From contig OZ022596.1 in assembly GCA_963669155.1 (NCBI GenBank), positions 3,435,304 to 3,499,303 of the forward strand: DNA of 64,000 nt. The letters run 5' to 3'. Position 1 is the stretch's first letter, and every line of letters starts with the position of its first letter. The notes below the pieces were generated by a model. The model was not told where the DNA came from. It did no database searches and was given only the letters and a program-made list of their open reading frames with translations. Below are positions 16,814-64,000 of this stretch, in pieces. The position numbers and the translations under genes are program-made. This DNA is from Arbacia lixula. Its lineage: Eukaryota > Echinodermata > Echinoidea > Arbacioida > Arbaciidae.

Positions 16814-64000
<47,187 letters not shown>

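Follow-up and report, generated by a model that had tools for sequence, protein, structure and literature searches.

A trypsin-domain lineage with threonine at residue 195 in the genome of Arbacia lixula

The replacement of Ser195 by Thr in thrombin and trypsin has reportedly been engineered in work by Baird (2006) and Pelc (2015). According to the excerpted text of PMC8695361, S195T compromises both thrombin and trypsin, and the first explanation was a clash with the C42-C58 bridge. In the thrombin S195T structure described in the same excerpt, the methyl group clashes with the incoming substrate, while the Thr O-gamma turns unhindered by the bridge and binds PPACK covalently; without the bridge, S195T trypsin gains marginally and the loss in thrombin is corrected in part (PMC8695361). 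Since the Thr O-gamma is unhindered and bridge removal is of limited help in that account, a retained bridge argues weakly against catalysis. The passages of PMC3835919 that concern trypsin describe its conversion to a threonine protease by C42A, C58A/V and S195T. In 2021 the text of PMC8695361, as excerpted, held that no protease of the trypsin family was documented with an active-site Thr. The relevant sections of PMC11172050 list 125 serine peptidase homologues with an altered triad in Tenebrio molitor, 21 of them with Thr at 195, and give a low but detectable activity for recombinant SerPH122 (H, D, T). From these Tenebrio homologues, a natural Thr195 is an already known kind of replacement (PMC11172050, same sections). 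A literature search for the motif string GDTGGP together with serine protease found nothing.

The window analysed here is a stretch of 64,000 nucleotides from Arbacia lixula (OZ022596.1, here contig C21). Its positions 49712-49735 read GGT GAT ACT GGA GGA CCT CTA CAG and translate to GDTGGPLQ, with the ACT codon of Thr195 at 49718-49720. This agrees with the initial annotation, which had reported a GDTGGP exon with Thr at the place of the catalytic Ser and had listed the His (TAAHC), Asp (NDIAL), pocket Asp (DTCQ), activation site (R-ILGG) and full cysteine set as kept; all of these were seen, including His57, Asp102, Asp189 and 10 cysteines. The domain is encoded by four exons (A to D, Table 1) with GT-AG borders and phases 2, 1 and 0, which leave 240 residues open counted from the first cysteine. 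Pfam Trypsin (PF00089) spans the full domain with an E of 9.5e-57 and places it in the S1A fold by sequence profile. With Thr at 195, where Ser is nearly universal in such enzymes, the domain departs from the S1A triad of His57-Asp102-Ser195 and belongs with the serine protease homologues, which are trypsin domains with a triad residue replaced. It is not a threonine protease of the Ntn-hydrolase (proteasome) type, as its profile is that of trypsin and its Thr is internal rather than N-terminal. Among the best 60 of 550 distinct sequences of solved structures, plasma kallikrein and TMPRSS2 were the best matches, and TMPRSS6, matriptase, plasminogen and enteropeptidase ranked lower. Searches of the window by tblastn and a six-frame motif scan found neither another trypsin domain nor a Ser-coding GDSGGP exon that could serve as an alternative.

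Table 1. Modules of the apparent mosaic gene and exons of the trypsin domain (positions within the window)
Feature	Position	Strand	Remarks
Candidate transmembrane segment	17168..17230	+	hydropathy mean 3.0 over 21 residues; follows polar N-terminal stretch
SEA exon 1	20306..20430	+	borders read by eye
SEA exon 2	21177..21235	+	borders read by eye
SEA exon 3	22049..22209	+	borders read by eye; contains GSIRV
EGF-like exon array	22805..42116	+	tblastn, 19 full and 2 short partial matches; motif scan, phase-1 borders
Trypsin exon A	46571..46748	+	C1, R-ILGG activation site, H40-R41-C42-A43-A44, TAAHC (His57, Cys58)
Trypsin exon B	47103..47359	+	NDIAL (Asp102), C122, C136, GWG
Trypsin exon C	47960..48102	+	C168, C182, DTCQ (Asp189, C191)
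Trypsin exon D	49712..49862	+	GDTGGP (Thr195), C201, SFG (214-216), C220, PGVY (Gly226); phase-1 donor, no stop
CUB domain 1	52020..52385	+	Pfam CUB E 2.6e-21; in phase from exon D, acceptor by eye
CUB domain 2	52928..53293	+	Pfam CUB E 8.2e-18; tblastn
LDLa exons (5), alternating with CUB-like exons in 53950..63917	53950, 55753, 57521, 59494, 62886	+	tblastn
CUB-like exons (5), alternating with LDLa exons in 53950..63917	54655, 56425, 58434, 61806, 63552	+	tblastn

The trypsin exons sit within a long series of modules. The candidate transmembrane segment gives the mosaic gene a putative type II-like start, with a provisional start codon and exon borders, and a Pfam search of its open reading frame found no family above the cut-off. 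When the three SEA exons were joined, Pfam SEA matched above its cut-off (E 2.3e-11), and we take GSIRV in the third of them to be of the SEA self-cleavage motif type. The transmembrane candidate and SEA lie upstream of the Thr domain on the same strand and, in one chain with it, would supply the N-terminal TM and stem of a type II transmembrane serine protease (TTSP). Pfam EGF was above cut-off for two of three sample exons of the EGF array and just below it for the other, and among the samples from 53950..63917 one of two LDLa exons and one of two CUB-like exons were above cut-off. The trypsin unit is entered and left in phase 1, and the EGF exons can be read likewise. Because exon D closes with a phase-1 donor instead of a stop, the Thr domain is internal to its protein. 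Three further features were seen in the window. At 37330-42116 two kinds of EGF exon alternate, a pattern that duplication of a two-exon unit would give. At 51276-51407, after the trypsin domain and ahead of the first intact CUB exon, lies a CUB exon that has decayed and carries an in-frame stop; it also occurs in the near-copy on C21 described below. Upstream of the mosaic gene, on the minus strand at 9512-13258, there are long open reading frames that by eye are non-LTR retrotransposon-like and resemble a reverse transcriptase, an endonuclease and an ORF1-like frame.

Past the window on C21, LDLa and CUB pieces are followed by the exons of a second trypsin domain (C21:3525398-3539002), which comprise a His57 exon, an NDIAL piece and a GDSGGP exon that runs into an in-frame stop; no match was found there for exon C of this domain. 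These exons lie about 40 to 54 kb beyond the window Thr domain, and with an in-frame stop soon after, the GDSGGP domain may form the C-terminus of the mosaic protein. From strand, order and phase, the TM-SEA-EGF-trypsin(Thr)-CUB/LDLa mosaic and the downstream trypsin are apparently one gene.

The genome from which the window was taken (607 Mb, 590 contigs) contains further domains of this kind. A DNA search with the catalytic exon returned four places, and all four encode GDTGGP. They are the window's own domain (W), an inverted near-copy on C21 as well, at a distance of 153 kb and with 98% DNA identity to the window exon (C21p), and one domain each on contigs C14 (C14) and C4 (C4a), with 80% and 76% identity, respectively, over 116 bases. 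When the catalytic exon was used as a protein query, 53 candidates were scored and 37 matches had an E of 0.001 or less; these added a fifth, more diverged Thr domain at C4:1764582 on the minus strand (C4b). The codon at 195 was read in all 37 matches and encodes Ser in 31, Thr in five and His in one; these counts cover exons that start at the same intron position or score well against the query, with more distant S1A genes outside. Additionally, a genome-wide pattern search for a splice acceptor followed by GDTGGP gave seven matches and none in the control. Five of the seven are the known Thr domains, the other two (C3, C19) translate to no trypsin, and no sixth GDTGGP trypsin domain was found by this search. 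The same pattern for an AGY serine gave 26 matches as a raw pattern count and none in the control. The agreement of all four DNA matches, the fifth domain from the protein search and the five of seven pattern matches indicate that the Thr domains are more than a chance occurrence. Downstream of the Thr domain, canonical GDSGGP exons were present on the same strand in all four loci examined (W, C21p, C4a and C14, with C4b outside this comparison).

All five Thr domains are open and have GT-AG borders at matching places, and three of the paralogues matched PF00089 with E of 2.4e-61, 6.9e-57 and 9.4e-56. Thr195 is encoded by ACT in W, C21p and C4b and by ACG in C4a and C14. Cys42, Cys58, Asp102, Asp189, Gly193, Asp194, Gly216, Gly226, the activation Arg and the 10 cysteines are kept in all five. 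His57 is present in four, and C14 has Tyr. Residue 215 is Phe in four and Val in C14; Phe215 in place of Trp was considered as a Thr-specific trait and rejected, as Ser relatives carry it too. The five form one clade, supported at 99/99 in a tree of whole domains with 10 rows, of which some Ser rows are incomplete, and at 99/96 in a tree of catalytic exons with 37 rows but few columns. A sequencing or assembly error, a single odd allele and the recent decay of a single copy are refuted in substance, since GDTGGP occurs five times, is spread over three contigs and uses two different Thr codons; we regard an error or odd allele as having a negligible chance of being correct.

Several other observations were made in the course of these searches. 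The near-copy of the mosaic gene (C21:3281000-3350999) is inverted, and its trypsin domain is followed by four first-type CUB exons, compared to two in the window. This difference in CUB number favors a true inverted duplicate over a partial assembly effect. In the Thr domain on C4, a short stray match, GGSVSDALQEA (C4:1501149-1501181), lies just ahead of exon C and may be left over from the duplication of part of an exon. On C5, two neighbouring trypsin exons (L048 and L074, C5:17291431-17293614, minus) carry Arg57 and GDHGGP and are probably one clearly dead pseudoprotease. Also on C5, four catalytic exons (L038, L040, L046 and L047 at C5:26586042, 26754871, 26616941 and 26784529) have GDSGSG for GDSGGP; they form two pairs, identical or nearly so, suggesting a recent block duplication.

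Since C21p is a near-copy of W, with 2 synonymous changes and 2 of other kinds between them, the evolutionary arguments count four Thr lineages and not five. Pairwise comparison of the four diverged domains gave pS of 0.62 to 0.83 and dN of 0.20 to 0.38. For the three pairs without C4b, dN/dS was 0.085 to 0.154, which is a rough estimate with synonymous change near saturation. The suggestion in the initial annotation that this is not general decay is therefore strongly supported, by five intact copies, purifying selection and a Thr retained through both ACT and ACG codons. However, the retention of Thr195 and His57 is unexceptional inside the domain, given that 105 of 242 columns are invariant among the four diverged domains. 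In a neutral simulation with assumed branch lengths, His was retained in W, C4a and C4b in 0.4 or 2.3% of trials; for retention of Thr the share was 1.3 or 5.7% over three lineages and 0.4% over four. Retention of both residues is thus unlikely solely for unconstrained sites, and structural constraint could account for it. As judged from these sequences, the Thr195 trypsin lineage is real, old and maintained.

Despite Tyr57 in C14, comparison of the catalytic exons of C14 and C4a gives a dN of 0.054 against a dS of 1.02, which indicates that the catalytic exon of C14 has been kept without a complete triad. Exon D of the window is also the best conserved exon, with about 80% identity to both C4a and C14 as opposed to 51-68% for exons A to C. 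When changes were assigned by parsimony relative to W and C4b, exons A to C had 18 changes in C14 and 12 in C4a (37 ambiguous), and exon D had 2 and 1 (2 ambiguous), so that C14 has evolved at most slightly faster than C4a. C14, with His57 lost and a catalytic exon almost unchanged, is the strongest single case for a role other than catalysis, and the other four Thr copies are the best argument against generalizing from it. The initial annotation had proposed either a pseudoprotease or a Thr-nucleophile variant. The pseudoprotease half of this proposal gains from the tightly constrained catalytic exon of C14; the Thr-nucleophile half may still hold, as the other four copies retain His57 and Asp102, and the sequence does not decide between them.

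With Thr195 the domain probably serves as a module for binding or has very little enzymatic power. The reading we favor, with somewhat better than even confidence, is a domain that can be activated and has an intact pocket but is catalytically crippled, and that binds Arg/Lys-bearing partners beside working GDSGGP domains. In this model, the S1A domains of the Thr195 lineage would be parts of TTSP-like mosaic proteins of very large size. Cleavage after Arg15 would proceed as in a normal zymogen, and the Ile16-Asp194 salt bridge and the intact Asp189 pocket would form. The Thr195 methyl would then cripple catalysis by clashing with substrate; the Cys42-Cys58 bridge, which is retained, perhaps adds a second clash. 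The domain would bind Arg/Lys-bearing partners such as a substrate, an inhibitor or a neighbouring protease domain, with nil or very slow turnover, and the downstream GDSGGP domains would do the cutting. This is supported by the five intact Thr domains, the activation and pocket residues kept in all five, the S195T data, C14 and the downstream GDSGGP exons. The presence of His57 and Asp102 in four of five counts against it, as a pure binding domain would need neither. The low activity of the natural H-D-T homologue SerPH122 also counts against it, as do the small shares from the neutral simulation, subject to the structural constraint noted above.

Those same two residues raise the alternative that the domain is a physiological threonine protease, in which Thr195 would work with His57 and Asp102 in slow but useful trypsin-like cleavage, aided by Ala43 and Arg41. 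His57, Asp102, Gly193, Asp194 and Asp189 are all kept in W, C21p, C4a and C4b, and a slow threonine protease is made possible by this retention in most members and by the activity of a natural H-D-T homologue. The initial annotation had held it as established that Thr abolishes or nearly abolishes activity. The direction of this statement is borne out by thrombin and trypsin S195T, which the excerpt of PMC8695361 calls greatly compromised, and this also speaks against a working threonine protease. As a rule, however, it is too strong, since in the sources as excerpted Thr195 of thrombin binds PPACK covalently (PMC8695361) and T. molitor SerPH122 is active at a low but detectable level (PMC11172050). 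Against catalysis, both Cys42 and Cys58 are kept in all five Thr domains, whereas the bridge is absent from the engineered threonine trypsin in the cited passages of PMC3835919; its removal aided S195T trypsin marginally and thrombin partly (PMC8695361, as excerpted). The persistence of C14 without His57 also argues against this alternative, and we consider it unlikely, though worth serious consideration.

The part that Ala43 might play was judged from an exon-A search of the genome, in which 44 candidates were scored and 32 matched with an E no higher than 0.001. In trypsin, residue 43 touches residue 195. The four Thr domains with His57 (W, C21p, C4a and C4b) all have Ala at position 43, and C14, the Tyr57 copy, has Gly there. 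Of the 27 other exon-A matches, with the matching catalytic exon read for part of them, 26 carry Gly at this position, one carries Met and none carries Ala. Position 57 in these 27 is His in 26 and Arg in one. At most this hints that Ala43 goes with a working triad, in keeping with a threonine protease. However, Arg41 is found in all five Thr domains and in none of the 27 others, and both residues behave as clade signatures, so the link of Ala43 to the triad reduces to one gain and one apparent reversal. A more specific proposal can be built on this pattern, namely a natural branch of threonine proteases in which Thr195 is the nucleophile despite the Cys42-Cys58 bridge, Ala43 (perhaps with Arg41) reshapes the strand beside 195, and C14 lost His57 and let Ala43 revert to Gly as unneeded. 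We regard this proposal as a long shot.

The domain could instead be fully dead, a purely structural spacer of the mosaic in which the conserved residues serve folding alone. Its position inside a long array of modules and the one member without His57 (C14) are what such a spacer would look like. However, the pocket and activation residues are kept in all five domains, though folding alone should not require them, and the catalytic exon is the best conserved part of the domain. The C5 domain of the same genome, with Arg57 and His195 (two neighbouring exons taken as one gene), provides a contrast. A spacer role is therefore improbable, and a crippled domain that binds its partners is still the reading we favor.

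Type II transmembrane serine proteases have TM, SEA, LDLa and CUB modules and a C1-C122 link, and their protease domain is C-terminal with Ser195. Members of this family (TMPRSS2, enteropeptidase and matriptase) are among the best structure matches of the window domain, after plasma kallikrein, in the best 60 of 550. The window trypsin domain differs from them in being internal, with Thr195 and with CUB exons after it. The engineered S195T enzymes resemble it in that Thr195 is set in a trypsin fold that is normal in other respects and includes Cys42-Cys58, but those are man-made single mutants and this is a natural, maintained lineage with Ala43 in four of five members. Human polyserase-1, -2 and -3 resemble the mosaic in that one chain apparently holds several trypsin domains, not all of which are active, though the sections of PMC1435904 on these proteins mention no Thr195 and describe polyserase-2 and -3 as without extra stem domains. 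Honey bee serine protease homologues are also trypsin folds with a catalytic residue replaced, but the GDSGGP column of Table 1 in PMC1761132, within the portion cited, has Thr in 0 of 13 and Gly in 5 of 13. Closer are SerPH122 and SerPH245 of Tenebrio, which in the sections of PMC11172050 cited above have a natural Ser-to-Thr replacement at 195 and keep His57 and Asp102. Their S1 residues are G,L,S and G,M,T, whereas the Arbacia Thr domains have the trypsin type D,G,G; they are among the highly expressed feeding-stage homologues, whereas the domain described here lies within a TM-SEA-EGF-CUB-LDLa mosaic (PMC11172050, same sections). To these systems the window adds a Thr lineage with a trypsin pocket (DGG) that has outlasted old duplications within a single animal genome, and its built-in contrast, one member without His57 and with Gly43, makes the capability of Thr195 in this fold testable using natural proteins.
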